36,120 nucleotides of DNA, from positions 1 through 36,120 of the forward strand of contig JAUYTV010000036.1 in NCBI GenBank assembly GCA_030694985.1, written 5' to 3'. The first letter of the stretch is position 1, and the number at the start of each line of letters is the position of its first letter. This DNA is from Methanoregula sp. Lineage in GTDB: Archaea; Halobacteriota; Methanomicrobia; Methanomicrobiales; Methanospirillaceae. The notes beneath the pieces are model-generated. The model searched no databases. It saw only the letters and a list, made by a program, of their open reading frames with translations, and was not told the DNA's origin. This document shows, piece after piece, positions 1 to 21,822 of this stretch. The position numbers and the translations under genes are program-made.

Positions 1-1365
1 CGGGGTGAGTAAATACACGTATGTAGCGTTGCCGACAGTCACCAGCATATCGCCGCCGACCGGCCCGGTAGCCGGGGATACCCCGATAATCATTACCGGC
101 ACGAACTTTATCGGAGCAACGAACAGTGAAACCTCGCTCTATAACGTATCGATAAACGGCACCGTATTAACCAATATGACGGTAGTCAGTGCAACGTCGA
201 TCAGAGGGAGCACCCCGGCCGGTATCGCGGGGCTGGTTAACATCAACGTCACCACGCCGAACGGCACTTCGGTAACCGGTACGAACAAGTATACGTATGT
301 CGATCTCCCGAAATTCATCAGCATCACGCCATTGACCGGCTCGACAACGGGTGGTACACCGATAACAATCGTTGGTGAAAACTTAGCCGGAGCAACTAAG
401 TTAGCCGGTTCCATGTGGAATGTCTCGATTGGTGGCATCAACTTAACCAATATGACGGTAGTCAGTTCCACGAAAATCATTGGGAGTACACTGGCTCATG
501 AATCCGGACCTGTTGATGTAATTATCAGCACACCGAACGGCACATCCGTAACCGGTACAAGTGCATATACGTATGGTCTTCCCCCGGTGGTCACCAGCGT
601 CGCACCGCCGACCGCCCCGGTATCCGGCATCACCAATGTAACGATAACCGGTTCGAGTCTGACCGGCGCAACAGCAGTAACTTTTGGCGGGACACCGGCA
701 ACCAACATCACGGTCATTAATGATACAACGATCAATGCGAGTGCCCCTGCCCATGCAGCCGGTCTCGTTAATGTGAACGTCACGACGCCGAACGGTGTAT
801 CAGTAACCGGGACGGGTGTCTATCTCTATGTAGCCCTGCCGACGGTTACCAGTGTAGCACCGCCAACCGGCCCGCTTGTTGGCGGCACGGGTGTAACCAT
901 CATCGGTACGAACTTAACCGGCGCAACAGCAGTAACGTTTGGCAGGACACTGGCAACCGATGTTTCGGTAGTCAATGTGACGGCGATCACAGCGACCGCC
1001 CCTGCAAATGCAGCCGGCCTGGTATATGTCAATGTCAGCACCCCGAACGGCACGGCAATCGGGGTGAGTAAATACACGTATGTAGCGTTGCCGACAGTCA
1101 CCAGCATATCGCCGCCGACCGGCCCGGTAGCCGGGGATACCCCGATAATCATTACCGGCACGAACTTTATCGGAGCAACGAACAGTGGTTCTTCCCTCTA
1201 TAACGTATCGATAAACGGCACCGTATTAACCAATATGACGGTAGTCAGTGCAACGTCGATCAGGGGGAGCACCCCAGCCGGTATCGCGGGTCTTGTTAAC
1301 ATCAACGTCACCACGCCGAACGGCACCTCAGTAACCGGTACGAACAAGTATACGTATGTAGACGT
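1..1365 (+). repeat. Near-identical in-frame duplication inside the surface-protein gene
   Basis: The stretch starting at base 1 recurs from base 1060 with very few differences for about 300 bases (offset 1059 = 353 codons). It covers one IPT/TIG repeat and the start of the next. The main local difference is around base 125 versus 1184 (ETS versus GSS at protein level). Such identity points to recent duplication or gene conversion. Confidence 0.85.
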
Positions 1366-4300
1366 TCCGACATTTACGAGCATCACGCCGGTGACCGGCT
1401 CGACAGCGGGTGGCACACCGGTGACCATCACCGGGACGAACCTTATCGGAGCGACGAACAGTGGTTCTTCCATCTTTAATGTATCCATTGGCGGAACTGC
1501 GTTAACCAATATGACAGTAGTCAGTTCCACGAAGATTATCGGAAGCACCCGTGCAGGTAACGCAGGTCTCGCTGATGTAATTATCAGCACGCCGAACGGC
1601 ACTGCAACCGGGGGGGCTGGGGCATACACCTATGCTGGTCCCCCGACATTCACCAACATCACCCCGGCATCCGGCACTACATTGGGAGGTACCACAGTAA
1701 CAATTAGCGGTACAAACCTGATTGGAGCGAACGCTGGCGGAGTGAACGGCAATGTAACCATTGGCGGCTCACTGGTAACCATCGTATCAGTCGTCAGCGA
1801 TTCAATCACGGCGACTACACCTGCTCATGCAGCCGGAGCAGTTAACGTTGTCATTACCACACCTAACGGCACTGCAACCGGCACGGGAGTATATTCTTAT
1901 GGAGCACCCCCGACATTCACCAGCATCACCCCGGCATCCGGCACGACAGCGGGCGGTACCACGGTAACGATTAGCGGTACGAACCTTATTGGAGCGAACG
2001 CTGGCGGAGTGAAAGGCAATGTAACCATGGGGGGCTCACCTGCAACCATAGTCTCGGTAGTCAGTGGTTCTATCACAGCGACAACGCCTGCTCATGCAGC
2101 CGGAGCTGTTGACATCGTCATCACCACACCTAACGGCACTGCAAATGGTACAGGAGTATATTCCTACAGAGCACCCCCAACGTTCACCAGCATCAATCCG
2201 GCATCCGGCACGACAGCGGGCGGTACCACGGTAACGATTAGCGGTACGAACCTGATTGGAGCAAACGCCGGCGGAGTGAACGGCAATGTAACCATTGGTG
2301 GCTCGCCTGCAACCATAGTCTCGGTAGTCAGCGGTTCCATCACAGCGACAACGCCAGCTCATGCAGCCGGAGAGGTTGACGTAGTTATAACCACACCCAA
2401 CGGCACTGCAACCGGTGGGACCGGTGCATATACCTATACGGTTCCACCAACGGTTACCCACATTGCACCCCCGACCGGCCAGAACACGACAACGATCAGC
2501 ATCGCGAACCTTCAGGGAACCGGTTTCTATGGAACACCCACAGTCAACCTGACAAAGACTGGAGAAAATAATATCACGGCAACTGATGTGACGGTCGCAT
2601 CTGCAACCAAGATCACCTGCAAATTCGATCTGTCCGGTAAAAAAGTTGGAGCCTGGAACGTAACCGTGATCAATCCAGATGGTCAGTCAGGTTCACTCTT
2701 TGAGGGTTTTACGGTAACAAACTCAACACCCTCACCTGCAGTTAGCAGTATCACTCCCAGTACCGGCCAGAACAACGCAAGTGTCATTATCACCGACCTC
2801 GCGGGTACCGGGTTCCTTTCCGGTGCAACAGTGAAACTGACGAAGAGTGGCCAGACAGATATCGTGGCAACCGGTGTCACCGTTGTTTCTGCAACCCGGA
2901 TCACCTGCACGTTTGATCTGACCGGTAAAGCAGCCGGGCCCTGGAACATTGTCGTCACCAACACGGATACCCAGACCGGGACGCTCACCAACGGTTTTAC
3001 CGTAACCAGCCTCACCCCGACACCCACGTTCACCAGTATCACCCCGGCATCCGGTACGACAGCGGGAGGTACCACAGTAACGATTAGCGGTACGAACCTG
3101 ATTGGAGCGAACGCCGGCGGAGTGAACGGTAATGTAACCATTGGCGGCGCACTGGCAACTATAATATCAGTAGTCAGCGGTTCGATCACGGCGACAACAC
3201 CCGCTCATGCAGCTGGAGCAGTTAACGTAGTCATCACCACACCTAACGGCACTGCAACCGGGGGGACTGGGGCATACACTTATGTGAGTGGCCTGACGGT
3301 TACCGATATTGCACCTCCAACCGGCAAGAACACGAAAACAATTAGAATAGCGAACCTTAAGGGAACCGGGTTCTATGGATCCCCAACAGTCAACCTGACG
3401 AAGACCGGAGAAAATAATATCACGGCAACCGATGTGACGGTCGAATCTGCAACCAAGATATCCTGTACATTCGATCTGTCCGGTAAAACAACAGGAGCCT
3501 GGAACATAATCGTGATCAATCCAGACGGTCAACAAGCCTCACTGATCAACGGTTTTACCATAACAGATTCATCACACTCACCTGCAGTTACTAGTATCAC
3601 CCCCAGTACAGGCCAGAACACGACAAGTGTTATTATCACCAACCTCGCGGGTACCAGGTTCCTTTCCGGTGCAACGGTGAATCTGACAAAGAGCGGTGAA
3701 CCAGATATCGTTGCAACCGGAGTAACGGTCGTTTCTGCAACCAAAATCACCTGCACGTTTGATTTGACCGGTAAAGCAGCCGGGCCCTGGAACATTGTTG
3801 TCACCAACACGGATAACCAGACCGGGACGCTCCCCAACGGGTTTACGGTAACAAAACCCATTCCGGTAGCATCATTTACCCAGAGCCCGGTTACCGGTCC
3901 CGCCCCGCTGACGGTGAGCTTTACGGACACTTCAACCAATAATCCGACAAGCTGGAACTGGAACTTCGGTGAAGGAAACACGAGTACGATCCAGAACCCA
4001 ATTAACTCGTACGTGAATCCCGGGGTCTATAACGTAACCCTGACCGCAACAAACATTTACGGCAGCAGTCCTCCGAACACATCAGTGAAGATTATCTCGG
4101 TTACAACACCCGTAACCCAGAGTAACACGACTTATCCGGGAGTTACCGTCAGTAATGCTACTGAAAAAAATTTCCAGTTCAACATCACCAGTGTTGTGAA
4201 TTCGGGAGGATCTGTAAGTAACGCATCCTCTACCCAGGTTGACTATCAGACGCCTGGTTGGAAGAATATAGTTCTGACCGGTACAAACATCACCACCAGC

Positions 4301-6241
4301 AACGGGAATATCTTTGTTGACAAAGTGACTTCCGTTAAGATGGCAACTCTTCCGCTTACCTATACTTTCGATAGTGTTGGAACCGCCCGGTCGCAGTTTG
4401 TCCTTGACCAGAAGACCATGACGCAAGGGGCTGCATTTGAAAGAGCGGTTGTTCCTGGGGCCAATGAGACGGTGACTTCCCGGTTCCAGCTGGCTGTGCA
4501 GGGACAGGGTGCTACTCTGGGTGCCATCGGTTACACCGTTGAAGTAACCGGTTCTGCTCCATTCAATGCCAATATGACTGGGACGAATCCGGTTTCAATC
4601 AACCTGAGTGTGAGCCATGCATGGGTAATGGCGAACGGTGGTACGGGAGCGATCCGGATCCTTCACCTGCCCGAAAGCGGAACAGCAGAGAGCCTGACCA
4701 CAACGTATGCCTTTGGTGACGGCACAACCGATTACTTCAAGGCACATTCGAACGGATTATCCATCTTTGGTCTTGCAAGTGTAACAACAAATCCCACCCC
4801 AGCCCAAGCCTCAGGTCCAGCCAGCAGTAGTGGCACTATTCAGTCAGGTCAACCCAGTATTATTTCAGCAACCGCAAACCCGGCCCAAGCGGGTCAGACC
4901 GTCAGTTATTCGTTTGGCACCCCTTCTGCCACGTATCCGGTCTCGATCCAATCGGTATCCTTTGTACCCAACACGGCAATTCCCCAGTCCCTGTGTGTGG
5001 TCCAGCAGCAAGGCCCGTCAGCTGCATTTGGTCTCAAGGACCGACCTGCAGCATACGAGAACATTGAGATCTCGTGGATAAATCCGAATGCGATCACATC
5101 CGGAACGATTCATTTCAGCTTACTCGGGTCATGGGCAAAAGAGAACCAAATCGAACCTGCCAATGTAGTTCTGCTGCGGAGCCACGATCTTGTCTGGACA
5201 GAACTCCCGACATCATTTGAACACACGGAGGGGGATATTCATTATTATTCTTCCAATACCCCCGGTTTCTCGTACTTTGCAGTCTCTCAGAAACTGCCAC
5301 CCCTAACAGAAAAAGCAACCCCGCAGGCAACAGTATCCCCGGCAGGTAGCGTTCAGCCGGCATCGCCCTCTGTTACGGTAACTGCACTTATAACTCCTGT
5401 TCAAACGAAAATGGGCCCGGAAGTTGGGAAAGGTACTTCTGTGTTATCTCCCGCACCAGAACCCTCTGTTATTCCGGATACTGCAAGTATTCTGCTCGTT
5501 TTCGGGGTTGCCCTGTTTTGTGCAACCATTGTCATATATCTCTATTTCCGGAAAATGTCAAAGAAGACTTCTCATAAGACCCCGCACAAAACCCGTGTCC
5601 TTATCGTTGATGATGAACCGCAGATCGTCGAGCTATTCTCCTTCATTCTGGATATGGAAGGATACGAGCCAATAAAAGCTTCCAGCGGAAAGGAATGCCT
5701 TTTGCGGCTTTCGGACAAGAAAAACTCACCGGATGTCATCCTTCTTGATGTCACGATGTCCCCGATGGATGGATGGGAGACACTGGAAGCGATAAAGAAG
5801 GACCCGGCGCTCCGGAAAATCCCGGTGCTGATGCTTACGGGAAAACAACTGCTTCCTGAAGAAGCAAAACATTACGGGATATGCATTGAGGATTATCTCC
5901 TCAAACCAATTATGCCCCACGCGATGTATGACGCAATCGAGTATGTCATCAACCGGAAGAAGAAGATTGATGCTGAGATCCAGCTGGCAATCAAAGCAGG
6001 GCACGAAAAAGCCCTTGTATGCGAATATGCAAAACTCGCAAAACAGGTTGATGTAGACAAGAAACTCCTCAAACTCATGGGTAAGAAAAATTCCAAGATG
6101 GAAAAGACAGGGAATGGTATAAATCAGACCATTGAGGATCTGGCTGATGATATGGTGCTGAGGGAAGAGAAGTTGATACAACTCCGGGAAAGAATTTCCG
6201 TATCCCCGTTATCGTTTATCTGCCTCGAATTCCAAAATTAA
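1..6241 (+). CDS. Giant surface protein: IPT/TIG repeats, PKD, membrane helix, cytoplasmic receiver (REC) domain; 5' end outside window
   Basis: The frame is open from the left edge, so the true start and signal peptide lie upstream. The GTG at position 5 is an internal codon, because the same sequence recurs mid-gene at 1064. Numbering from that codon, about 14 IPT/TIG-type repeats of roughly 85-95 residues fill 1-1280; four of them are a variant with a TGQN-like opening. A PKD domain follows at about 1284-1367 (WNWNFGEGN). A segment ending in PGFSYFAVSQ (about 1640-1762) resembles the archaeal PGF-pre-PGF domain. A Ser/Thr/Pro linker leads to a membrane helix at 1829-1848. A receiver domain at about 1864-1985 has all canonical residues: D1869/D1870, phospho-acceptor D1915, T1945 and K1967. 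The last ~90 residues are charged and helical, with no DNA-binding or enzyme domain. The predicted topology is a long adhesive or sensory ectodomain outside and REC inside. I infer a role in surface sensing or adhesion controlled by phosphorylation; no kinase is nearby. Confidence 0.9.
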   Translation, partial: GVSKYTYVALPTVTSISPPTGPVAGDTPIIITGTNFIGATNSETSLYNVSINGTVLTNMTVVSATSIRGSTPAGIAGLVNINVTTPNGTSVTGTNKYTYVDLPKFISITPLTGSTTGGTPITIVGENLAGATKLAGSMWNVSIGGINLTNMTVVSSTKIIGSTLAHESGPVDVIISTPNGTSVTGTSAYTYGLPPVVTSVAPPTAPVSGITNVTITGSSLTGATAVTFGGTPATNITVINDTTINASAPAHAAGLVNVNVTTPNGVSVTGTGVYLYVALPTVTSVAPPTGPLVGGTGVTIIGTNLTGATAVTFGRTLATDVSVVNVTAITATAPANAAGLVYVNVSTPNGTAIGVSKYTYVALPTVTSISPPTGPVAGDTPIIITGTNFIGATNSGSSLYNVSINGTVLTNMTVVSATSIRGSTPAGIAGLVNINVTTPNGTSVTGTNKYTYVDVPTFTSITPVTGSTAGGTPVTITGTNLIGATNSGSSIFNVSIGGTALTNMTVVSSTKIIGSTRAGNAGLADVIISTPNGTATGGAGAYTYAGPPTFTNITPASGTTLGGTTVTISGTNLIGANAGGVNGNVTIGGSLVTIVSVVSDSITATTPAHAAGAVNVVITTPNGTATGTGVYSYGAPPTFTSITPASGTTAGGTTVTISGTNLIGANAGGVKGNVTMGGSPATIVSVVSGSITATTPAHAAGAVDIVITTPNGTANGTGVYSYRAPPTFTSINPASGTTAGGTTVTISGTNLIGANAGGVNGNVTIGGSPATIVSVVSGSITATTPAHAAGEVDVVITTPNGTATGGTGAYTYTVPPTVTHIAPPTGQNTTTISIANLQGTGFYGTPTVNLTKTGENNITATDVTVASATKITCKFDLSGKKVGAWNVTVINPDGQSGSLFEGFTVTNSTPSPAVSSITPSTGQNNASVIITDLAGTGFLSGATVKLTKSGQTDIVATGVTVVSATRITCTFDLTGKAAGPWNIVVTNTDTQTGTLTNGFTVTSLTPTPTFTSITPASGTTAGGTTVTISGTNLIGANAGGVNGNVTIGGALATIISVVSGSITATTPAHAAGAVNVVITTPNGTATGGTGAYTYVSGLTVTDIAPPTGKNTKTIRIANLKGTGFYGSPTVNLTKTGENNITATDVTVESATKISCTFDLSGKTTGAWNIIVINPDGQQASLINGFTITDSSHSPAVTSITPSTGQNTTSVIITNLAGTRFLSGATVNLTKSGEPDIVATGVTVVSATKITCTFDLTGKAAGPWNIVVTNTDNQTGTLPNGFTVTKPIPVASFTQSPVTGPAPLTVSFTDTSTNNPTSWNWNFGEGNTSTIQNPINSYVNPGVYNVTLTATNIYGSSPPNTSVKIISVTTPVTQSNTTYPGVTVSNATEKNFQFNITSVVNSGGSVSNASSTQVDYQTPGWKNIVLTGTNITTSNGNIFVDKVTSVKMATLPLTYTFDSVGTARSQFVLDQKTMTQGAAFERAVVPGANETVTSRFQLAVQGQGATLGAIGYTVEVTGSAPFNANMTGTNPVSINLSVSHAWVMANGGTGAIRILHLPESGTAESLTTTYAFGDGTTDYFKAHSNGLSIFGLASVTTNPTPAQASGPASSSGTIQSGQPSIISATANPAQAGQTVSYSFGTPSATYPVSIQSVSFVPNTAIPQSLCVVQQQGPSAAFGLKDRPAAYENIEISWINPNAITSGTIHFSLLGSWAKENQIEPANVVLLRSHDLVWTELPTSFEHTEGDIHYYSSNTPGFSYFAVSQKLPPLTEKATPQATVSPAGSVQPASPSVTVTALITPVQTKMGPEVGKGTSVLSPAPEPSVIPDTASILLVFGVALFCATIVIYLYFRKMSKKTSHKTPHKTRVLIVDDEPQIVELFSFILDMEGYEPIKASSGKECLLRLSDKKNSPDVILLDVTMSPMDGWETLEAIKKDPALRKIPVLMLTGKQLLPEEAKHYGICIEDYLLKPIMPHAMYDAIEYVINRKKKIDAEIQLAIKAGHEKALVCEYAKLAKQVDVDKKLLKLMGKKNSKMEKTGNGINQTIEDLADDMVLREEKLIQLRERISVSPLSFICLEFQN

Positions 6242-6832: not shown

Positions 6833-9076
6833 TCATGGCCCCGTTCTCGTCTGCTCCAGGGATTTTCCTGCATACACGCACTGCCCGTACGAAACACAGC
6901 CATCGCCCAGCGGGTAATCGGCATTGATGACGCAGTCATAGCCCGCTTGAGTAATCTCATCTCTTATCGTCTCGCGGATTGCGTTGTTGATGGCAACACC
7001 CCCGCTGATCGCAATCTTCTGCCTGCCATCTTTGTCCGCAGCCCGGATGGCAAGAGCAGCAATACCCCGCGAGAGATTGTACTGGAACGATGCAGCGATA
7101 TCCCGCACTGCCCGGAGATCATCCCCTGGTGCTTCCTGCATTCGTGTAAGTGTGGTCTCCATCAGGGAACGGGTGGAGAGGATGTCGCATCCAGCGTGGC
7201 GACCATACACCAGTTCCCATGGCCCGGTATGTCCGCCATATGCTGCAGCTTCGAGTTTCATGGCCGGCTCGCCATCATAGGTCTTCTCCCGGCAGATGTT
7301 GAGCAGTGCTGCGGCAGCATCGAGCACCCTGCCGGTACTGCTGGTCTGCGTGACATTGAATCCTGTTGCTAACTGTTTTTTCATCACACCGAGTTCGATA
7401 TCCGACCACCCGCGCCCGGCCAGCAGTGCGCAAATCCGCTCATCGGGCAGGATACCGTAGAGCATCCGCTCCGGAAACCGGGTGGCCAGATCCCCGCCGG
7501 GCATCGGTACTGGTTCGAGATGGGCTACGCGCCGGAAGTCCGGCACCGCCCCGCTGAAGATCTCGCCACCCCAGACAGTCCCGTCATCACCGTACCCTAC
7601 CCCGTCGATTGCGATGCCGATGCAGGGCTCCGTTGTCGCTGCTGCGATATGCGCCCTGTGGTGCTGAACCGGGATCAGTTCCAGCGAATGTTCCGCTGCC
7701 AGCTCGCGGGCGAAGCGGGTAGAGAGGAACTGCGGGTGGAGATCGTGGGCGATCACGTCGAACTTTGCGCCCAGCACCCTTTTGAGGTTCTGCACGGTCT
7801 CTTGCAGGTATTCCAATGTTGCCGGGTTCCGCACATTGCCCACATGCGGTGATGTGACCGCAAAACCGTTTTTGTAGATCGTTGCATTTGAATTCAGTTC
7901 CGGGCCTACCGCAAGGATGCAGTGTTTCCCGAGATCGATTGCGGTCCGCTTCGGCGCAATCCCCCGCGAGAGCCGGATGATGTACCCGTCCCGCATCACC
8001 GAGTCATCGCACCGGTTCACAATAGTCCGGTTGTGCGTTAAGAAGAAATCCACGTCCCGGTTCAGCTTCGCCATTGCCTGATCGATATTGGTTATCATCG
8101 GGTAGCCGGGCATGTTGGCGCTTGTCATGATCAGGAGCGGGTTTCTGAGATGGGAAAACAGGAGATGGTGAAGCCCGGTATAGGGGAGCATGCAGCCGAT
8201 GGTATGGACGTTGCTGATCGTTTCGTGAGCCGTGGGATCGCGCTTGGTGAGGACAACGATCGGGTGGACCGGGCTGTTTAACCGTTCCTTGTCCTGTTCA
8301 GTCACGACCGCCATCTGTTCGAGATAATCCGGGCGTACCATAATCGCAAACGGCTGCTCGATCCTGCCGAGCCGGTGCTTCAGTTCACCCGCTGAACTCT
8401 CAATACAGACAAGGTGGAATCCCCCAATGCCCCGTATCGCAAGGATCTTTCCGGCATCGAGCAGCCCTGCTGCTTCCCTGACGGGATCGCAGCAGTCCAC
8501 CTGCCGGCCTTGTGTATCGAAGAGTTCGATCTTCGGCCCGCACGTGTGGCAGGCGATAGTCTGGGCATGATGGCGCCGGGAATGGGGATCATTGTATTCC
8601 TGTGCGCAGGCGGGACACATCGGGAACTCTTTCATTGACGTGCGTTCGCGGTCGTAGGGGATTTCGTTGATGATGCTGTACCGTGGCCCACAGTTCACGC
8701 AGGATGTGGCCCAGTAATTTTCGTACCGCCCGCCCGTATTAAAAATATCAGTGATGCACTCATCGCAGCATGCAATGTCGGGCGGGATCATACCGCTGAA
8801 TGAACCGGTTGCGCTGGGTACTATGAAAAAACCGTCAGGAATGGTTTTTTGCGTGTCAGAAACGGTCACTGAATCAATGCGCGAGAGCGGGGGACCGCAG
8901 GTGACTGCTGCAACAAACTCTAAAAACCTGTCACCCCGGGCAAAAATCTCCACTTCGCTGCCGAGATTCTGTACCGTGCCGGCGATCTTCAGCCTCGCTG
9001 CCTGTGCGTACACAAACGGGCGGAACCCGACACCCTGAACAATTCCGCATACTGTGATTCTGCCCGTTTTTCGCAT
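6833..9076 (-). CDS. hypF: Carbamoyltransferase HypF, [NiFe] hydrogenase maturation
   Basis: HypF uses carbamoyl phosphate and ATP to carbamoylate HypE, the route to the cyanide ligands of the [NiFe] centre; it is cytoplasmic. The order of domains is classical. An acylphosphatase domain (1-90) carries GIVQGVGFRPF at 11-21. Two zinc-finger-like Cys motifs follow (C104/C107 with C126/C129; C154/C157 with C176/C179). Then come a YrdC-like domain (about 195-380, with MTSANMPG) and a Kae1-like domain with the HHRAH metal site and GVGYGDDGTVWGGE. The length of 747 aa is normal. There is no Shine-Dalgarno sequence before the ATG, and a TATA-like element lies about 30 bp upstream, so the transcript is probably leaderless. 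No other hyp gene is present; methanogens often scatter them. Confidence 0.97.
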   Translation of the reverse strand: MRKTGRITVCGIVQGVGFRPFVYAQAARLKIAGTVQNLGSEVEIFARGDRFLEFVAAVTCGPPLSRIDSVTVSDTQKTIPDGFFIVPSATGSFSGMIPPDIACCDECITDIFNTGGRYENYWATSCVNCGPRYSIINEIPYDRERTSMKEFPMCPACAQEYNDPHSRRHHAQTIACHTCGPKIELFDTQGRQVDCCDPVREAAGLLDAGKILAIRGIGGFHLVCIESSAGELKHRLGRIEQPFAIMVRPDYLEQMAVVTEQDKERLNSPVHPIVVLTKRDPTAHETISNVHTIGCMLPYTGLHHLLFSHLRNPLLIMTSANMPGYPMITNIDQAMAKLNRDVDFFLTHNRTIVNRCDDSVMRDGYIIRLSRGIAPKRTAIDLGKHCILAVGPELNSNATIYKNGFAVTSPHVGNVRNPATLEYLQETVQNLKRVLGAKFDVIAHDLHPQFLSTRFARELAAEHSLELIPVQHHRAHIAAATTEPCIGIAIDGVGYGDDGTVWGGEIFSGAVPDFRRVAHLEPVPMPGGDLATRFPERMLYGILPDERICALLAGRGWSDIELGVMKKQLATGFNVTQTSSTGRVLDAAAALLNICREKTYDGEPAMKLEAAAYGGHTGPWELVYGRHAGCDILSTRSLMETTLTRMQEAPGDDLRAVRDIAASFQYNLSRGIAALAIRAADKDGRQKIAISGGVAINNAIRETIRDEITQAGYDCVINADYPLGDGCVSYGQCVYAGKSLEQTRTGP

Positions 9077-14074: not shown

Positions 14075-15742
14075 TCATCCCGCCACCTGCTTCACCACCG
14101 CCCCCGCCAGCCGCGCCTGAACGCCCGCCCTCTCCTTCAGGCGCGATTCAAGGGCATCGCACAACGCCATCAGCGCATCAACCTTCGCGACGATGCGGTG
14201 TTGTTCGGTGAGCGGGGGGAGAGGAACCGGTAATAGTTTCAGATCAGCGATGTTTATTCCAGAATATGCGATCCCCTTCAAATTTTTCGAAAGCCAATTT
14301 TGGCAGAATGGTGATGCCAATGCATATGCAATGTATTTTTCAGATATTTTCGAAATAATGGGAATAACAGCAACTTCACGGGAAATGTTATACCCCTTCA
14401 TAAACCGAGGAACAACCGCAATGCCACCCAGTGTCCCTCTAACATTTATGACAATTTCTCCTCCGTTTAAAAAGGTTCGTTGATATTGAGCAGCGATTGA
14501 AGGATCGATACGTTTGACCTTGAAATCATTAATATGTAAAAATTTAACATCAGATGAACGAAGGACGGGTACACCATCACTTATTTCCGAACCCAGTTTG
14601 ATTACACCGTAAGTGATAATTCGGTTCTTTTCGCACAGTGAGACACATCTGGTCCCAATCCATCCACTCGGTAGATCAAAAGGAATATCGGTTGTTTGAA
14701 CAGGGTCATTTTTTTCTTTGCTCAATAATTTGCTCGCCGGTTCATCTCCCGGGTCCTGCCGGACCAGTCGCCCCTGCACCGCCAGCTGGAGGATCGTCTG
14801 CCGGAGCACCGCGACATTCTCCGGGCAATCCAGGATCAGATCGAACGCATCGCACACCTGCGCCCACTGCCGCCCGAACTCCTCCGGGCTCTCCGCGTTC
14901 TGCAACCCGGCAAGGCTCGCGGTGCCGAGTTTGAGGCAGCCCGCCCGCTCCAGCTGCTGTCGGGCTTCGAGTTCATCGCAGAGCGTCATGAGCTGGTTTA
15001 CTTTGACGACAATACGGTGTTGTTCGGCAAGTGGGGGTAAGGGAAAATAACAATTTCTCAATTTTGTTGCGTTAACATTAGGTACGCCGGTGCCAAGACT
15101 CTCGTCAGAGATTACACTCCAATAATAGGGAGATTTTAGAAAGAATGCAAAATAATCCCGATTTATCATGGGTTTGAATCTAATTAGATATGAAGCAAAT
15201 ACGGATTTTTTTGGATTTTTTATCAGATGACTTTCTCCAACAGAACCAGCACGTGAAATTACAATATCTCCATCAGTAATCAGATATTTTTCAAGATCTG
15301 TTGGGACTTCAGAACAATACGGAACGGTGTCCCAATTAATATTCCCAGATGTGATATCCGTAGTTCTCAATAAATGGATTTTTCCGGTCGTCGATCCTTG
15401 GGTTGTCCAACCGTATTGTGTCGGGGTGCAAATAGTTCCAATCTGTGTCCAAACCCAATTTTTTGGAAGGATAAATGGGATTTTGTGTTCATCAAAAGGT
15501 GAAATTTCTTTTTCACGACTACCATCGCTGCTAATTTTTCGAATCTGTTTTTTTACGGTCTCTAATAATTCACTCGCCGGCTCGTCACCCACATCCTGCG
15601 TCCCGAGTTTCCCCTGCACCGCGAGCTGCAAGATCAGTTCCCGCAGCCCGGCGATGCCATCCGGTGCGGTGGCAAGCGTGGTGAAGTGCTCGAAGAGGAG
15701 GGTGTCGGTCATTGCCGGGTTCGCGGGTATTGGATTTTTCAT
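14075..15742 (-). CDS. hsdS: Type I restriction-modification specificity subunit HsdS
   Basis: HsdS gives DNA sequence specificity to the HsdM2HsdS methylase and to the HsdR-containing nuclease. The 555-aa protein has the expected two halves, each a variable target-recognition domain followed by a near-identical conserved helix region: PLPPLAEQHRIVVKV...LCDELEARQQ in the middle and PLPPLTEQHRIVAKV...LCDALESRLKE at the end. The repeat LILQLAVQGKL / TILQLAVQGRL also precedes both domains. Both halves look intact. The two domains are AT-rich compared with the GC-rich conserved regions, which is typical of shuffled recognition domains. The ATG at 15742 is preceded by a duplicated leader; an internal start at MTDTLLFEHF is possible. 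Confidence 0.95.
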   Translation of the reverse strand: MKNPIPANPAMTDTLLFEHFTTLATAPDGIAGLRELILQLAVQGKLGTQDVGDEPASELLETVKKQIRKISSDGSREKEISPFDEHKIPFILPKNWVWTQIGTICTPTQYGWTTQGSTTGKIHLLRTTDITSGNINWDTVPYCSEVPTDLEKYLITDGDIVISRAGSVGESHLIKNPKKSVFASYLIRFKPMINRDYFAFFLKSPYYWSVISDESLGTGVPNVNATKLRNCYFPLPPLAEQHRIVVKVNQLMTLCDELEARQQLERAGCLKLGTASLAGLQNAESPEEFGRQWAQVCDAFDLILDCPENVAVLRQTILQLAVQGRLVRQDPGDEPASKLLSKEKNDPVQTTDIPFDLPSGWIGTRCVSLCEKNRIITYGVIKLGSEISDGVPVLRSSDVKFLHINDFKVKRIDPSIAAQYQRTFLNGGEIVINVRGTLGGIAVVPRFMKGYNISREVAVIPIISKISEKYIAYALASPFCQNWLSKNLKGIAYSGINIADLKLLPVPLPPLTEQHRIVAKVDALMALCDALESRLKERAGVQARLAGAVVKQVAG

Positions 15743-15760
15743 TGTCTAAACGTCCAAAAA

Positions 15761-16195
15761 TTATCTTATAATTATACAACTTGGATCTCCAATTCTCGCA
15801 GGATTGTCGGTCATTTCCGGATTCATCGCATTAAATCTCGTAAAATTTATCCAATAACTATCTAATAGATTTCCCATACAAGCGTCGGTTACACGTGTTT
15901 GGAGGGTGGGGTTATCTATTTCGCGCCTCTGAACTGCACATTCATTTGTCATTGTCTCAAATCCCGCAAATTTTTTAAAATGAGACAATCCCTGAATTTT
16001 AGTTCTCCAAGAATTATCGCTCAATTCAGGATTCGACGCGAAAATTCTGATAAAATTTAGACAATTGTTAGACAATCGTGAGACAATTGTTAGACAATTA
16101 TGAGACAATCGAATTTCATTACAGGAGTCAGTTACACGAGTCTGGAAGGGTGTGTTATCAATTTCGCGCCTCTGAACTGCACGTCCATCTGTCAT
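15761..16195 (-). CDS. Possible small protein encoded by the hsdS-leader repeat (doubtful)
   Basis: An open frame of 144 codons spans both 243-bp units. Because 243 is divisible by three, the units read in the same frame (MTDGRAVQRREIDN and MTNECAVQRREIDN). The units differ by a 33-bp insertion equal to three 11-bp repeats, again in frame. NPEMTDN and NPELSDN in the units resemble NPAMTD near the N-terminus of HsdS. It matches no family I know and has repeat-like composition. It may be a non-coding repeat that happens to stay open, or duplicated, decayed hsdS 5' sequence. Confidence 0.25.
   Translation of the reverse strand: MTDGRAVQRREIDNTPFQTRVTDSCNEIRLSHNCLTIVSRLSNNCLNFIRIFASNPELSDNSWRTKIQGLSHFKKFAGFETMTNECAVQRREIDNPTLQTRVTDACMGNLLDSYWINFTRFNAMNPEMTDNPARIGDPSCIIIR
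16058..16112. repeat. Five tandem 11-bp repeats
   Basis: Exactly five contiguous 11-mers of the form (T/G)AGACAAT(T/C)(G/A)(T/A): TAGACAATTGT, TAGACAATCGT, GAGACAATTGT, TAGACAATTAT and GAGACAATCGA. An 11-bp period is close to one helical turn, so sites would face the same side of the DNA. The second 243-bp unit seems to hold only about two degenerate copies, which accounts for a 33-bp length difference. Confidence 0.85.
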
Positions 16196-16250
16196 TATCT
16201 AACATCTCCAAATTATCTAATAATTATCTAATACTCGCATGATCGCACCC

Positions 16251-16268
16251 ACCAACCAACCAACCAAC
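16251..16268. repeat. Tetranucleotide repeat (ACCA/CCAA)
   Basis: About 4.5 copies of a CCAA tetranucleotide lie in the gap between the AlbA_2 gene and the hsdS leader array. Short tetranucleotide runs can vary in length by slippage, but this one is in no clear gene. Confidence 0.6.
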
Positions 16269-16340
16269 ACACCCCATTTTCAATTTCAAGGCAGGATATG
16301 AGAGAAATATTATCTATAAGATTATCTAAAAGAGACATGA

Positions 16341-18023
16341 TCACCGATCCTTTTGTGTTGAGCCGGCAAGAACCCATTTTGCATACTTTTTTCCACCCTT
16401 CGTGGCTATCGTCCCTTCCTTTCGCATCTCCTGAAGCAGGTTTTTAATAAAATACTGCTTTTGCTCATCAGTAAGAGCCTCAGATACCTTATCGAGCAGG
16501 AGATCATCAATGGTTATTTTATCGGCTTCTCTGAATTTTCTAAGATATTCGATAATCATATCCTTGAAATAGTGCTTGTCAAACGACCGTTTCCTGATAT
16601 AATCAACCCGTGTATCTGTCTCTGCGGCAATTGCGTCCGACACAAAAAGATTCGGGCGTCTCCCCTCAACCAGTTTCTTTGATTTGAGAGATGCAAACTC
16701 CGGCTCAGAAAGACGCTGCCCTTTCTGAACCTTGTCAAGCGCAATAACATCCGGCATATCCAGATCCTTGCGCCGGACAAGCATCCGGGTATATTTCGGG
16801 TCGATAATCTTCCCGGTTAATCTCACAGAAACCTTTCCCGCCACTGACAAATTATAATCTGGCAGGGGGAAGTTCCGCTCTCTCTGGAGCCGGAACATAC
16901 GCTTGATCCCGCTTCCAATCGTATCAATCATATTAAGATTGACCATAGCCTGAGCGAGAAACGGATTCCGGTAACGATCAGGCAATGCGTCACTGGTGAT
17001 CAGGGAATCAACCGAACCCGGGATGAACACCCCCCGGTTGGTAAAAAGGAGGGATTCATCGTTCTCAACAACCGAGATCCGGGCTCCCTGAAGATAATCC
17101 TGGTGGGCGATGCAGTTGTGAAGAAGTTCCCGCATCACCCATGAGTCATACTGGGTAAGTTCCAGAGGGAACAGGGTCTCACCGGAGAGATGGCGGACGG
17201 TAAGGTTACGGATCTTTTCAAAAACTTTGTCGATAGCAAGGATGATGGGAAGACCGAAATGAGCATAGTCTCTCTCCACTCCGGAAGCGTTCTTCAGGAC
17301 CCATGTTATCTGCCCGATCGCAGGTGACAGATGATGTCCTGAGGTATTTTTTCCCAGAAGGAGAATCGCAGTATGGGTAATCTTCCCGTCAATGCACAAC
17401 CCGACCCTGTTTAAGAATTCCACATCCGTCCATGAATCAACATCGTTGACCAGACGGGGATTCTTTTTCTTGTATTCCTGCCGGGCGAACGCGATAGCTG
17501 CCGGATCAAGATTGGCGATCGTTGCCTTTTCACAAATACGTGCCGACCAGTCCAATGTCGCACTCTGATCCCGGATTCTCTGTATCTTGTGAAGAGCCAG
17601 TTGCCCGGTGGAATCATGGATGCGACCATAGACCAGACCCTTCCACTCTGTCGGGATGCCACGGGTCGCCGGGGGGACCTTAAACATCACCACCCGTCCT
17701 TCCGGCGTGTGAAGTTCCTCTATCGAGAGAAATGTCAACTGGTGATTCGTTTGCAAAGAAATCTTATGTTTCAGTTTGTCCAGACCCGGTGGGGTCTCAT
17801 TAAAGTGAGAGCCAACAATCTTACGGGGGGATTTGTCAGTCACTCCAAAGATAAGCCAACCCTCCGGTTTATCGTTCAGGTTGGCTTCGTTGCTTAGTGC
17901 GGAAACATATCGCCCAATCAGCTCAAAATCAAAAGTGGTTCCCGCTTCCTTGAACTCAACCCATTCTGTCTCAGTAGGGAGATTCATCAGATCGTGCAGA
18001 ACTTTGAGCAGGTTTTCAGGCAT
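16341..18023 (-). CDS. AlbA_2 (Schlafen-like) DNA/ATP-binding-type protein inside the RM operon
   Basis: About 560 aa. The N-terminal AlbA_2 domain (about 15-150) shows the usual E-x-VEFKEA opening and GWLIFGVTDKSPRKIVG. A central region resembles the C-terminal part of RecG-related COG2865 proteins (ELLHNCIAHQDYLQGARISV, FTNRGVF, IDTIGSGIKRMF). The last ~150 residues contain a likely winged helix. Such proteins are often called ATP-binding or transcriptional regulators and are frequent in type I RM loci. The start is set by GAGG: it is one base from the ATG at 18029 but seven from the ATG at 18023, so 18023 is preferred. It lies 17 bp after hsdM, so the genes are co-transcribed. A role in control or accessory defence is inferred. 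Confidence 0.85.
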   Translation of the reverse strand: MPENLLKVLHDLMNLPTETEWVEFKEAGTTFDFELIGRYVSALSNEANLNDKPEGWLIFGVTDKSPRKIVGSHFNETPPGLDKLKHKISLQTNHQLTFLSIEELHTPEGRVVMFKVPPATRGIPTEWKGLVYGRIHDSTGQLALHKIQRIRDQSATLDWSARICEKATIANLDPAAIAFARQEYKKKNPRLVNDVDSWTDVEFLNRVGLCIDGKITHTAILLLGKNTSGHHLSPAIGQITWVLKNASGVERDYAHFGLPIILAIDKVFEKIRNLTVRHLSGETLFPLELTQYDSWVMRELLHNCIAHQDYLQGARISVVENDESLLFTNRGVFIPGSVDSLITSDALPDRYRNPFLAQAMVNLNMIDTIGSGIKRMFRLQRERNFPLPDYNLSVAGKVSVRLTGKIIDPKYTRMLVRRKDLDMPDVIALDKVQKGQRLSEPEFASLKSKKLVEGRRPNLFVSDAIAAETDTRVDYIRKRSFDKHYFKDMIIEYLRKFREADKITIDDLLLDKVSEALTDEQKQYFIKNLLQEMRKEGTIATKGGKKYAKWVLAGSTQKDR

Positions 18024-18040
18024 TATCATTCCTCAACAGA

Positions 18041-19486
18041 TTATTTCTTTCCCCCAAGCGATGCCATCAGTTCCCGCTTCAGCGCCTCGCGGGTTGCTGC
18101 CGCCTCTGCCCGGATCCTCTCATACTCGCGGAGCAGTTCCACAGGATCGCCCAGTTCGTCCGGCACAACATTCGGGTTCTTGATATCGAGGTTGAACCCG
18201 TTCGCGATCACCTGCTCGACCGGCACCCGCCATGCATGAACAGTCTCGGTGCGGTTCCTCCACCAGGCCTTCTCGGGCTCGAACTCCTCGATCCGGATGG
18301 GCTTTGTCTTGTTATACGATTTGACACCCTCGGGATAGGTGTGCTCGTAGTACCAGATCTCTTTTGTCGGCTTACCCTTCTCAAAGAAGAGCAGGTTCGT
18401 CTTGATGCCGGTGTACGGGGAAAAGACACCGTTCGGGAGCCTCACGATCGTATGGAGGTTGCATTCCGTCAGGAGTCGCTCCTTGATACGGCTCTTCACG
18501 CCCTCGCCAAAGAGCGTCCCGTCCGGCAGTACGATCGCTGCCCTGCCGCCATCTTTCAGGATGTGCATGATCAGAACGAGGAAGAGATCGGCGGTCTCCC
18601 GGGTCTGGTACATGGCCGGGAAGTTTCCTTCGATCCCGTCCTCTTCCATGCCGCCGAACGGAGGGTTCGTCACGATCACGTCAACCCGGTCCCGGGCCGA
18701 GTAATCCTTCAGTGGGCGGGCGAGCGTGTTGTCATGCCGGATCTGGATCGGGACATCGATGCCGTGCAGCATCATATTCGTGACGCAGAGCAGGTGGGGC
18801 ATCGGCTTCTTCTCGACCCCGTGGATCGAGCTCTGGAGCAGGTCCTCCTCCTCGATCGTCTTGACGGTCTTGCGGATATTCTCGATCGCACACGCAAGGA
18901 ACCCGCCGGTACCGCAGGCCGGGTCAAGGATCGACTCGCCGAGTTTTGGGTCCACCTGATCGACCATGAACTGCGTCACGGCCCGGGGCGTATAGTACTC
19001 CCCGGCATTGCCCGCACTCTGGAGGTCTTTTAGGATCTTCTCGTAGATCTCCCCGAACAGGTGCCGATCCTCCGTCCGGTTGAAATCGATCTCATTGATC
19101 TTGTTTGCCACCTGCCGGACCAGCGTCCCGTTCTTCATGTAGTTGTACGAATCCTCAAAGACCCGGCGCAGCAGGATCCCGGAGCCGTTCGATCCCGCTT
19201 CTGCGGGCAGTTCCTTTAAGGTGGTGAAAAGGTCGGCATCAATGAACTTCATCAGCGCATCGCCCGTGATCCCTTCTGGGTCTGCTGCCCAGTTTCGCCA
19301 CCGGAGCCGGTCCGGCATCGGTGACCGGTATCCTTTCCGGAACAGTTCGTACTCCTTCTCCTTGTCATCAAAGATCTTCAAAAACAGCATCCAGCTCAGC
19401 TGGCTGATCCGCTGGGCATCGCCATCAACACCAGCATCCTTCCGCATGATGTCCTGGATCGTCTTGATCGTAGTACCGACTGCCAT
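18041..19486 (-). CDS. hsdM: Type I restriction-modification methyltransferase subunit HsdM
   Basis: An N6-adenine DNA methyltransferase that works with HsdS to protect host sites using S-adenosylmethionine. The N-terminal HsdM_N helical domain (about 5-140) is followed by the N6_Mtase domain. Motif I DPACGTGG lies at 188-195 and the catalytic motif IV NPPF at 274-277. GEYYTPRAV and the tail region match the family. The 481-aa length is usual. It lies 29 bp downstream of hsdR and is followed within 20 bp by the AlbA_2 gene, so transcription of the whole locus probably starts before hsdR. The protein looks intact and active. Confidence 0.97.
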   Translation of the reverse strand: MAVGTTIKTIQDIMRKDAGVDGDAQRISQLSWMLFLKIFDDKEKEYELFRKGYRSPMPDRLRWRNWAADPEGITGDALMKFIDADLFTTLKELPAEAGSNGSGILLRRVFEDSYNYMKNGTLVRQVANKINEIDFNRTEDRHLFGEIYEKILKDLQSAGNAGEYYTPRAVTQFMVDQVDPKLGESILDPACGTGGFLACAIENIRKTVKTIEEEDLLQSSIHGVEKKPMPHLLCVTNMMLHGIDVPIQIRHDNTLARPLKDYSARDRVDVIVTNPPFGGMEEDGIEGNFPAMYQTRETADLFLVLIMHILKDGGRAAIVLPDGTLFGEGVKSRIKERLLTECNLHTIVRLPNGVFSPYTGIKTNLLFFEKGKPTKEIWYYEHTYPEGVKSYNKTKPIRIEEFEPEKAWWRNRTETVHAWRVPVEQVIANGFNLDIKNPNVVPDELGDPVELLREYERIRAEAAATREALKRELMASLGGKK

Positions 19487-19515
19487 AAAAAAACCAGTTC
19501 CTTACCCGTGCCGTT

Positions 19516-21822
19516 TTAGCACTCCGCTGTATAGAGACACTGCTCAAGCCGACGTATTGCTGTCATATAATTGGCGCTCCCGCCAAAAATAGTGTTCACA
19601 ATTTCGAGCGGTGTGCCAAACGTGGTGAACGGGTCCACCCGCAGCACTTCCATGCTCTCGATATCAGTAATGCCGCCATCGGAATATTTCGACAGGAGAG
19701 CATCGAGCACCTTTTTCGCCTGCTCGCCGTACTTCGTAAAGTAATTCGCCTTTCTGACCTTTGCCGCCCGCTCTTTGCGAGACATCGGTGGCTGACCGAA
19801 GACCACATGGCAGATCAGGTCGAAGGGATCATAATCTTTCCCCACCTGCTCCTGAAGTGCTTCAAAGAGAACGCCCTGCTCCTCCAGTTCCTCTAAGATC
19901 GCCGTCTTCTGATCTGCCTTCGACCACGAATTCAGGAATGCGTCGAGCGTAGCATACTGCCGGATCACGTTCTTCTTTGTGTAGTCTTCCAGCGACTCGG
20001 TGATCAGCTTCCCGTCCGCAGCAATGTACTGGACCCGCTCAGCAACAACGGAGACCGGTACATCGTTTACCACGTACCGCCTTCTGCCGGAAGGTTCCAC
20101 GGGTTTTGCCTCGGGAGGAGCGATTGGGTCGGTCGGGTCATACAGGCTCCCGTCCAGCGGCTCGCCGTCAAAGTCCGGGTCGGCGAAGAGCTCGCTCACC
20201 TTCCGGAAGTCCATGATCGTAAAGAAGAACTTGTTGTAATCCTCGTTGATCCGGGTCCCGCGCCCGATGATCTGCTTGAACTCGGACATCGACTCAATCC
20301 TTTTATCGATCACGATCAGCTTGCAGGTCTGGGCATCCACTCCGGTCCCCATCATCTTTGAAGTGGTCGCAATCACCGGGTACTTTGAATCCGGTATAAT
20401 GAAATTGTCCAGCTCTGCCTTTCCCTCAGGGCTGTCACCCGTAATGCGGACAATGTACCGGTTGCTCTCCTTCACCAGATCCGCGTTCTCGTTCACAAGA
20501 TACTGCCGCATCCGTTCGGCATGATCGATATTCTCGCAAAAGACGATCGTCTTGTCATAGCGTCCGGTATTTTTTAAGAAATCCGAGATTTTCCTTGCAA
20601 CCAGTTGCGTCCGCTGCTCTATCACAAGGCTCCGGTCGAAATCCTTCTGGTTATAGATCCGATCCTCGATCACTTCCCCGTATTTGTCCGTCTGCCCACG
20701 GGTCGGCCGCCAACCCTGTAAATCCTTGTCCAGATCGATCCGGTACACACGGTACGGAGCAAGGAACCCGTCTTCGATCCCCTGCTTCAGTGAATACACG
20801 TACACCGGCTCACCGAAATAGTGCACATTCGAGACGTACTTTGTCTCCTTTGGAGTCGCCGTCAGGCCGATGTGGGTCGCTGTCCTGAAGTAATCAAGGA
20901 TCTCCCGCCATAGTGCATCATCCGCAGCACTCCCCCGGTGGCATTCGTCAACAATGATCAGGTCGAAAAAGTCAGGAGAGAACTGCCGGTAGATGTTCTT
21001 ATCCTCCTCATTGCCGGACACGGCTTGGTAGAGCGATAGATAGATCTCGTAACTCTTGTCCACCTGCCGGTTCTTGATCTTCGTCATTGCCGACCCAAAA
21101 GGCTTGAAATCATTGGTCAGGGTCTGGTCAACCAGAATATTCCGGTCAGCTAGGAACAGGATACGCTTCTTGGTACCGGATTTCCAGAGCCGCCAGATGA
21201 TCTGGAATGCTGTATAGGTCTTGCCGGTCCCGGTTGCCATGACGAGCAGGATCCGGTCCTTCCCGTTTGCAATTGCTTCAACTGTCCGGTTGATCGCGTT
21301 CAGCTGGTAATACCGGGGCATCTTCCGGACATCATCGATATAGTAACTCTGCGTGACAATGCGCTCTTTGGTATCATCCAGACCTTTCCATTTCCGGTAC
21401 CGGGTCCAGAGATCCACCGGTCGGGGAAATTCCGTAAGGGAGAGCTCACGTTCCATGGGTTCATAATTGCCGGACCGATCGTGCAGTAAAAACCCGTCCC
21501 CATTGGAACTGAACACAAACGGGATGTCCATCATTTCCGCATAGGCAAGTGCCTGTTGCATCCCGGCACCCACGATGTGATTATTGTCCTTGGCTTCGAT
21601 GACAGCAATCGGAAGATTGGGTTTATAGTAGAGGATATAGTCAGCCCGTCGCGGTTTGGCCCGGCTTACTGCGTTACCCTTGACGAGCACCCGGCCATTC
21701 GTGACATTTACCTCTTCCCGGATCTGGTGATGATGATCCCAGCCCGAGAGGGTTAATGCGGGAGTAATGTATTTGGTGCAGATGTCCCGCTCACTTAACT
21801 TCTTCTTATCCGATGTGTCCAT
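19516..21822 (-). CDS. hsdR: Type I restriction enzyme endonuclease/translocase subunit HsdR
   Basis: HsdR translocates and cuts unmodified DNA with ATP. The N-terminal nuclease domain has D61 and the E76-A-K78 pair (PIAVIEAKDNN). Motor motifs follow: Walker A ATGTGKT at 196-202, the DEAD-like box DECH at 292-295, TATP, and a late GRGTR motif (IIGRGTRINED). The C-terminal ~170 residues resemble the EcoEI-type HsdR C-terminal domain. At 768 aa it fits the shorter EcoEI-like group rather than the ~1,000-aa EcoKI-like one. It is first in the operon, with a TATA-like box about 45 bp upstream. All key residues are present, so the system is probably functional. Confidence 0.96.
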   Translation of the reverse strand: MDTSDKKKLSERDICTKYITPALTLSGWDHHHQIREEVNVTNGRVLVKGNAVSRAKPRRADYILYYKPNLPIAVIEAKDNNHIVGAGMQQALAYAEMMDIPFVFSSNGDGFLLHDRSGNYEPMERELSLTEFPRPVDLWTRYRKWKGLDDTKERIVTQSYYIDDVRKMPRYYQLNAINRTVEAIANGKDRILLVMATGTGKTYTAFQIIWRLWKSGTKKRILFLADRNILVDQTLTNDFKPFGSAMTKIKNRQVDKSYEIYLSLYQAVSGNEEDKNIYRQFSPDFFDLIIVDECHRGSAADDALWREILDYFRTATHIGLTATPKETKYVSNVHYFGEPVYVYSLKQGIEDGFLAPYRVYRIDLDKDLQGWRPTRGQTDKYGEVIEDRIYNQKDFDRSLVIEQRTQLVARKISDFLKNTGRYDKTIVFCENIDHAERMRQYLVNENADLVKESNRYIVRITGDSPEGKAELDNFIIPDSKYPVIATTSKMMGTGVDAQTCKLIVIDKRIESMSEFKQIIGRGTRINEDYNKFFFTIMDFRKVSELFADPDFDGEPLDGSLYDPTDPIAPPEAKPVEPSGRRRYVVNDVPVSVVAERVQYIAADGKLITESLEDYTKKNVIRQYATLDAFLNSWSKADQKTAILEELEEQGVLFEALQEQVGKDYDPFDLICHVVFGQPPMSRKERAAKVRKANYFTKYGEQAKKVLDALLSKYSDGGITDIESMEVLRVDPFTTFGTPLEIVNTIFGGSANYMTAIRRLEQCLYTAEC

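Follow-up and report, generated by a model that had tools for sequence, protein, structure and literature searches.

A TIG/PKD surface protein of Methanoregula ending in a membrane helix, a receiver domain and MetOD2: an apparent domain exchange

As a rule, response regulators are soluble proteins in which a signalling pathway ends. In Methanoregula, proteins that combine MetOD3, a receiver (REC) domain and MetOD2 were tabulated by Galperin et al. 2018 (Table 3, PMC5847659; example ABS55483 / A7I6X2), who termed MetOD3 membrane-anchored, and the transmembrane (TM)-REC-MetOD2 architecture itself is therefore already known. Bacterial hybrid transmembrane transcription regulators (PMC10269533) likewise combine a response-regulator domain with a membrane helix in a single chain, but add DNA-binding and often kinase domains, whereas DNA binding by MetOD2 is not known. 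The survey of transmembrane transcription regulators includes no archaeal member with a response_reg domain (PMC10269533), which fits, since MetOD2 is not a recognised DNA-binding domain. Here, we describe a gene in a 36,120-base stretch of Methanoregula sp. DNA (contig JAUYTV010000036.1 of assembly GCA_030694985.1; hereafter the window), which is the entire contig C17 of a draft genome of 58 contigs, about 2.49 Mb and 96% completeness (G000; G, C and L numbers are our handles for genomes, contigs and loci). The gene encodes a large adhesin-like surface protein whose membrane helix is followed by REC and MetOD2, so that one protein joins the cell exterior to the signalling network in an unusual way. 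By its sequence, this fused protein looks like a real domain exchange, present in a single genome among the 232 of the class, and the apparent source of its cytoplasmic end is a membrane-bound response regulator which, in relatives, adjoins a secreted protease. The literature searched, from which most subscription journals were excluded, contained neither the fusion of this tail to an adhesin, nor the idea that the tail is exchangeable, nor the relation of MetOD3 to M64 peptidases described below.

Domain layout of the fused protein

The initial annotation of this DNA had claimed an ectodomain of TIG, PKD and PGF-pre-PGF domains, one membrane helix and a complete receiver domain, and all of these are confirmed by the open frame, Pfam, NCBIfam and hydropathy (Table 1). 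The helix is the sole strong hydrophobic segment between the ectodomain and REC and coincides with an AlphaFold helix at residues 1827-1856; the basic stretch that directly follows it fits a cytoplasmic REC. The predicted arrangement is supported: a surface protein of type I topology whose cytoplasmic side bears a complete receiver domain. All receiver residues are kept and are invariant across 14 aligned TM-REC-MetOD2 tails, including the phospho-acceptor aspartate; the initial annotation named them correctly but numbered them one too low, the phospho-acceptor being D1916. What it had called a helical tail is indeed helical in the model (AlphaFold, pLDDT of the tail 87) but is the named methanogen output domain MetOD2. 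This domain, proposed as a variant of the helix-turn-helix (HTH) fold (PMC5847659), is modelled as two long helices together with the end of an extended alpha-5. In this form it resembles a helical hairpin or a bundle of three helices more than a compact HTH, although the HTH proposal may still hold. Structural alignment of the REC-MetOD2 model is dominated by REC matches and is uninformative on MetOD2 alone; the Foldseek matches to PorX extending beyond REC have an rmsd of 16-19 and are a lead only. HisKA and HATPase_c had no Pfam match in the chain up to E 0.1, and a hybrid histidine kinase was rejected on this ground.

Table 1. Features of the fused protein and of related gene pairs (window coordinates unless a locus is named)
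Feature	Coordinates	Strand	Evidence or remark
Whole open frame of the fused surface protein	2..6241	+	single frame, no internal stop; 2079 aa visible, 5' end cut by contig edge
IPT/TIG repeat region, aa 1-1285	2..3856	+	Pfam, about ten TIG stretches (10 in the window protein, E 3.7e-118); near-identical repeats
PKD domain, aa 1286-1362	3857..4087	+	Pfam PF18911, PF00801; match 1286-1357
Unassigned domain, aa 1365-1628	4094..4885	+	common to other Methanoregula surface proteins (matches in L076, L097)
PGF-pre-PGF domain, aa 1629-1762	4886..5287	+	NCBIfam TIGR04213, 70.9 bits, cut-off 28
Ser/Thr/Pro-rich linker, aa 1763-1825	5288..5476	+	alignable to the anchor-ending homologue of genome G179
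Membrane helix, aa 1829-1847	5486..5542	+	hydropathy, AlphaFold; followed by basic stretch RKMSKKTSHKTPHK (cytoplasmic side)
Receiver domain, aa 1866-1979	5597..5938	+	Pfam Response_reg, match 1866-1979, E 1.7e-19; model
Receiver residues D1870/D1871	5609-5614	+	
Receiver residue D1916	5747-5749	+	phospho-acceptor
Receiver residue T1946	5837-5839	+	
Receiver residue K1968	5903-5905	+	
MetOD2 output domain, aa 1985-2067	5954..6202	+	Pfam PF18548, match 1985-2067, E 1e-12, 48.3 bits, cut-off 30.6; model
MetOD3 and M64-like gene pairs, Methanoregulaceae	L072:3147-5700; L073-L084; L241:7988-10443		
MetOD3 and M64-like gene pair, window genome	G000:C18 = L248:7899-10828		

Since the window starts at the end of contig C17, the 5' end of the gene is missing, and the frame runs off the contig without a start context. 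Outside C17, the sole match of the TIG-repeat DNA is at the right end of contig C6 and has the same orientation. An open reading frame (ORF) of 477 aa there, which has no stop, starts like a signal peptide (MTVGLSNNVKRPPSASFYLLLVALLLIVGTVSA) and continues with a Gly-rich domain and two TIG repeats. This ORF is probably the N-terminal part of the window protein, so that the two would form a single gene exceeding 2,550 codons and split within its repeats, and the near-identical TIG repeats likely caused the contig break. If the C6-C17 join holds, the hydrophobic segment at the N-terminus of the C6 ORF would be the signal peptide for which the initial annotation had proposed extending the 5' end.

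Relatives of the tail and of the ectodomain

The TM-REC-MetOD2 layout, which the initial annotation implied to be unprecedented, is recurrent in Methanoregulaceae, usually with MetOD3, as the earlier tabulation records (PMC5847659). A profile search of 108 Methanoregulaceae genomes found the tail in about 20 of them. Every frame except that of the window is shorter than 500 codons, the MetOD3 profile matches the same frames, and those that were checked start with a signal peptide and MetOD3. Sought on other surface proteins, the tail recurs with MetOD3, but the only large surface protein that carries it among the 232 genomes is that of the window. In a tree of REC-MetOD2 sequences, built without the membrane helix and without the ectodomain, the window sequence lies within a TM-linked clade (8 rows, support 100/98), with 124 soluble REC-MetOD2 proteins outside it, and groups with those of genomes G171 and G158 (support 100/91); because branches are long, membership of the clade is firmer than the identity of the closest sister. 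The window tail is about 45% identical to its relatives, and in the window genome it has the only helix just upstream of REC among 43 receiver domains read. The fused protein thus resembles the MetOD3-REC-MetOD2 regulators in its helix-receiver-MetOD2 order and in its clade, but differs from them in its TIG/PKD/PGF-pre-PGF ectodomain of at least 1,825 aa, where theirs is a MetOD3 of about 150 aa, and in lacking an adjoining M64-like protease gene. The MetOD3 profile has no match in the window protein, and the M64-like protease gene has none in the window contig or the C6 stretch that probably precedes it; contig C18 holds the only MetOD3 match in this genome and the only protease match in the contigs examined. 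With the tail as query, a plasmid collection gave only ordinary REC matches below 60% identity, and viral contigs gave no relative of it. A further possible membrane-associated response regulator of the genus is a long REC-MetOD2-like protein encoded at three other loci (L086:7971-9392, L244:4936-6342, L245:4401-5699), whose middle is disordered and whose C-terminal end is hydrophobic and basic.

The usual partner of the tail can be described further. At 13 of the 13 loci compared, a gene for a secreted protein lies directly upstream of the MetOD3 gene on the same strand, mostly touching or overlapping it. Its product combines a PEGA/carboxypeptidase-regulatory-like domain with the motif HExGH...DTYCG, in which the histidines and the glutamate are invariant across 15 protease sequences; 4 of these 15 match PF09471 (IgA peptidase M64) weakly, at best with E 0.0044. 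The best PDB matches of a MetOD3 model built from five sequences (pLDDT 75) are Bacteroides M64 peptidases (Foldseek E 5e-4). MetOD3 aligns to their N-terminal domain, residues 27-151, with Z 8.9 over 108 residues and an rmsd of 3.6, while the next unrelated fold reaches Z 4.9. A PDB sequence search gave no match for MetOD3 and no peptidase match for the protease, so that the M64 link rests on the MetOD3 fold and the weak PF09471 matches. As the fold and the adjoining M64-like gene agree, MetOD3 and the upstream gene product are predicted to form a split M64 peptidase whose N-terminal half is anchored in the membrane and often bears REC-MetOD2 on the cytoplasmic side. The usual partner of the tail would therefore be that half. 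In the Bacteroides peptidases BF3526 and BACOVA_00663 (PDB 4df9, 9qdi, 3p1v) the N-terminal domain has the MetOD3 fold, whereas in Methanoregula the halves are separate genes with the N-terminal half membrane-bound, and the window protein has neither. The window genome also has a protease-MetOD3 pair, on contig C18, whose MetOD3 stops about 8 residues after its helix, without REC-MetOD2; in this genome the REC-MetOD2 end sits on the adhesin instead. MetOD3 thus occurs both with and without the tail, which therefore behaves like a cytoplasmic end that can be exchanged.

The ectodomain belongs to a different group, the PGF-pre-PGF surface proteins of Methanoregula (TIGR04213), with which it shares its TIG, PKD and PGF-pre-PGF pieces and its Ser/Thr/Pro linker. 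A homologue in genome G179 (L085) is 61% identical over the PGF-pre-PGF domain and linker and then ends in a membrane helix and about 15 residues. The other two PGF-pre-PGF proteins of the window genome and several of genomes G192 and G193 end in a helix and the sequence RRWWIRRQNPALFRxYD, whereas the window protein lacks this sequence and has TM-REC-MetOD2 in its place. Since these relatives share the linker yet end in a plain anchor, the exchange would have occurred at or just before the membrane helix. The initial annotation had assumed that an archaeosortase signal normally closes such proteins; this does not apply to the PGF-pre-PGF proteins of the genus, which end as just described, and an archaeosortase substrate was rejected on the same basis. 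The anchor sequence is highly conserved in many surface proteins of the genus: a DNA search of 108 genomes gave about 90 matches to it and 1 to a reversed control, and in 23 of the 26 cases read it stands at the extreme C-terminus, after a helix (loci include G000:C11, L099:4204-6327; G000:C26, L100:6305-9757; and L284-L312). No Pfam or NCBIfam model covers it, and it is possibly an undescribed sorting or anchoring signal.

Proposed function and competing readings

We propose, with a probability of about one half, that the fused protein is a membrane-tethered response regulator that arose by domain exchange, is phosphorylated in trans, and acts through MetOD2 at the site of the adhesin. This proposal starts from what the sequence itself provides, namely which parts are present, their order and topology, a receiver site that is intact, and the clade to which the tail belongs. 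A Methanoregula adhesin of the TIG/PKD/PGF-pre-PGF type would have lost its anchor tail and gained the helix, REC and MetOD2 end of a MetOD3-TM-REC-MetOD2 protein. Its ectodomain would be exported and bind a surface, a sheath or a partner cell, and D1916 would be phosphorylated in trans by one of the many histidine kinases of the cell. Phosphorylation would alter REC pairing through the alpha4-beta5-alpha5 face as well as the packing of the MetOD2 helices, and this change would set which cytosolic partner is held under the membrane at an engaged adhesin. In this division of roles, the ectodomain would supply place and clustering, REC the switch and MetOD2 the output.

Several observations weigh against this proposal. 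The window contig holds no histidine kinase, to which the initial annotation had looked, and a search near the fused gene found neither a kinase nor a partner gene. In favour of the proposal, there are genome-wide 56 HATPase_c matches, alongside 47 receiver matches, so that kinases able to act in trans are plentiful, and it is from these counts that we infer phosphorylation in trans. Also against it, the exact fusion is restricted to one genome, so there is no conservation to show selection, and the window tail is a long branch (1.26). We know of no partner or activity of MetOD2.

An unlikely alternative is that the signal runs from the inside out: REC phosphorylation would pair or part the tails and, through the helix, cluster or release the ectodomains, turning adhesion on or off. 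A single helix and a short basic spacer do link REC directly to the ectodomain, and in relatives the tail bears an M64_N-like domain beside a protease gene, which makes a cytoplasmic switch on an extracellular activity plausible. Rigid transmission is doubtful because the long flexible linker at residues 1763-1825 separates the helix from the folded ectodomain, clustering still being possible, and such a mechanism would not need to retain a separate output domain. The reverse direction seems rather improbable too. Here, the outside would be sensed by the ectodomain (by the M64 protease pair in relatives), and phosphorylation or dephosphorylation of REC would change as a result, making the protein a receptor that modulates a phosphorelay. 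REC domains can be sinks in phosphorelays, and the tie of the ectodomain half to a secreted protease gene at all 13 loci in relatives would suit a sensor of proteolysis or substrate; against this, no ligand-binding site is known, and the adhesin ectodomain is unrelated to MetOD3, so that any shared sensing would have to be non-specific, for example clustering. A wider view in which the tail is a transmembrane control module for different surface proteins, with a phosphorelay setting the state of adhesin or protease from inside in an integrin-like manner, is similarly doubtful.

Chance joining of two genes that left a tolerated but idle tail is less credible again. The singleton status of the fusion and the long branch would suit it, but the tail frame is open throughout and, at about 45% identity to relatives, still has all five receiver residues, which implies that the tail was under constraint for most of its divergence, a divergence that may predate the fusion.

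The joint itself is almost certainly real. The reading frame is open across it with the right topology, GC content and third-position GC show no jump, and the repeats that trouble assembly lie at 2-2415, three kilobases away. In the contigs of the window genome that were examined, we found neither a MetOD3-REC gene nor an adhesin end standing as an orphan, and no second gene of the M64 type. The initial annotation had raised two ways in which its reading could fail: REC as a separate gene in homologues, of which none with REC as a neighbouring gene was found, the ectodomain relatives read being without REC, and a faulty join of two genes. That an assembly or binning error fused an adhesin gene with a MetOD3-type gene is hardly tenable and was rejected, for although the draft has 58 contigs and the repeat-rich gene already broke the assembly on its 5' side, the in-frame joint, even composition, distant repeats and absence of orphan pieces all speak against a chimera.

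The same membrane-REC-MetOD2 end is seen on two unrelated ectodomains: that of an adhesin and the M64_N-like half of a split protease. Should it function in both settings, it would be a portable connection between the archaeal phosphorelay and the cell surface. The M64 connection offers a first structural relative and a likely binding partner for the orphan domain MetOD3, and through it the mechanism becomes testable in cultivable Methanoregula or with purified parts.

Soluble REC-MetOD2 proteins and neighbouring genes

The soluble REC-MetOD2 regulators of Methanomicrobiales (PF18548) are 43-52% identical to the window protein over the REC-MetOD2 part, but have neither a membrane helix nor an ectodomain, and in many genomes they lie by what looks like an RNA polymerase operon. 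Their genes stand between a small Roadblock/LC7-like gene and an RNA polymerase operon-like set, names that come from reading the sequences and not from profiles, and this neighbourhood hints at a partner for MetOD2. Genes for a MinD-like ATPase and Roadblock/LC7-like proteins are found near the soluble REC-MetOD2 genes in many Methanomicrobiales genomes (L154:8618-17899, L137:8989-18134). The window genome has a tandem pair of soluble REC-MetOD2 genes on contig C34 (L090:6668-8070), a duplication that recurs in many Methanoregula genomes.

Elsewhere in the window, a HypF-like carbamoyltransferase gene lies just downstream of the fused gene on the opposite strand (6833-9076, -). Further along, an apparently complete type I restriction-modification set (R, M, S) occupies 14075-21822 (-), with a gene for an AlbA-type ATP-dependent regulator-like protein and a small repetitive ORF inside it.

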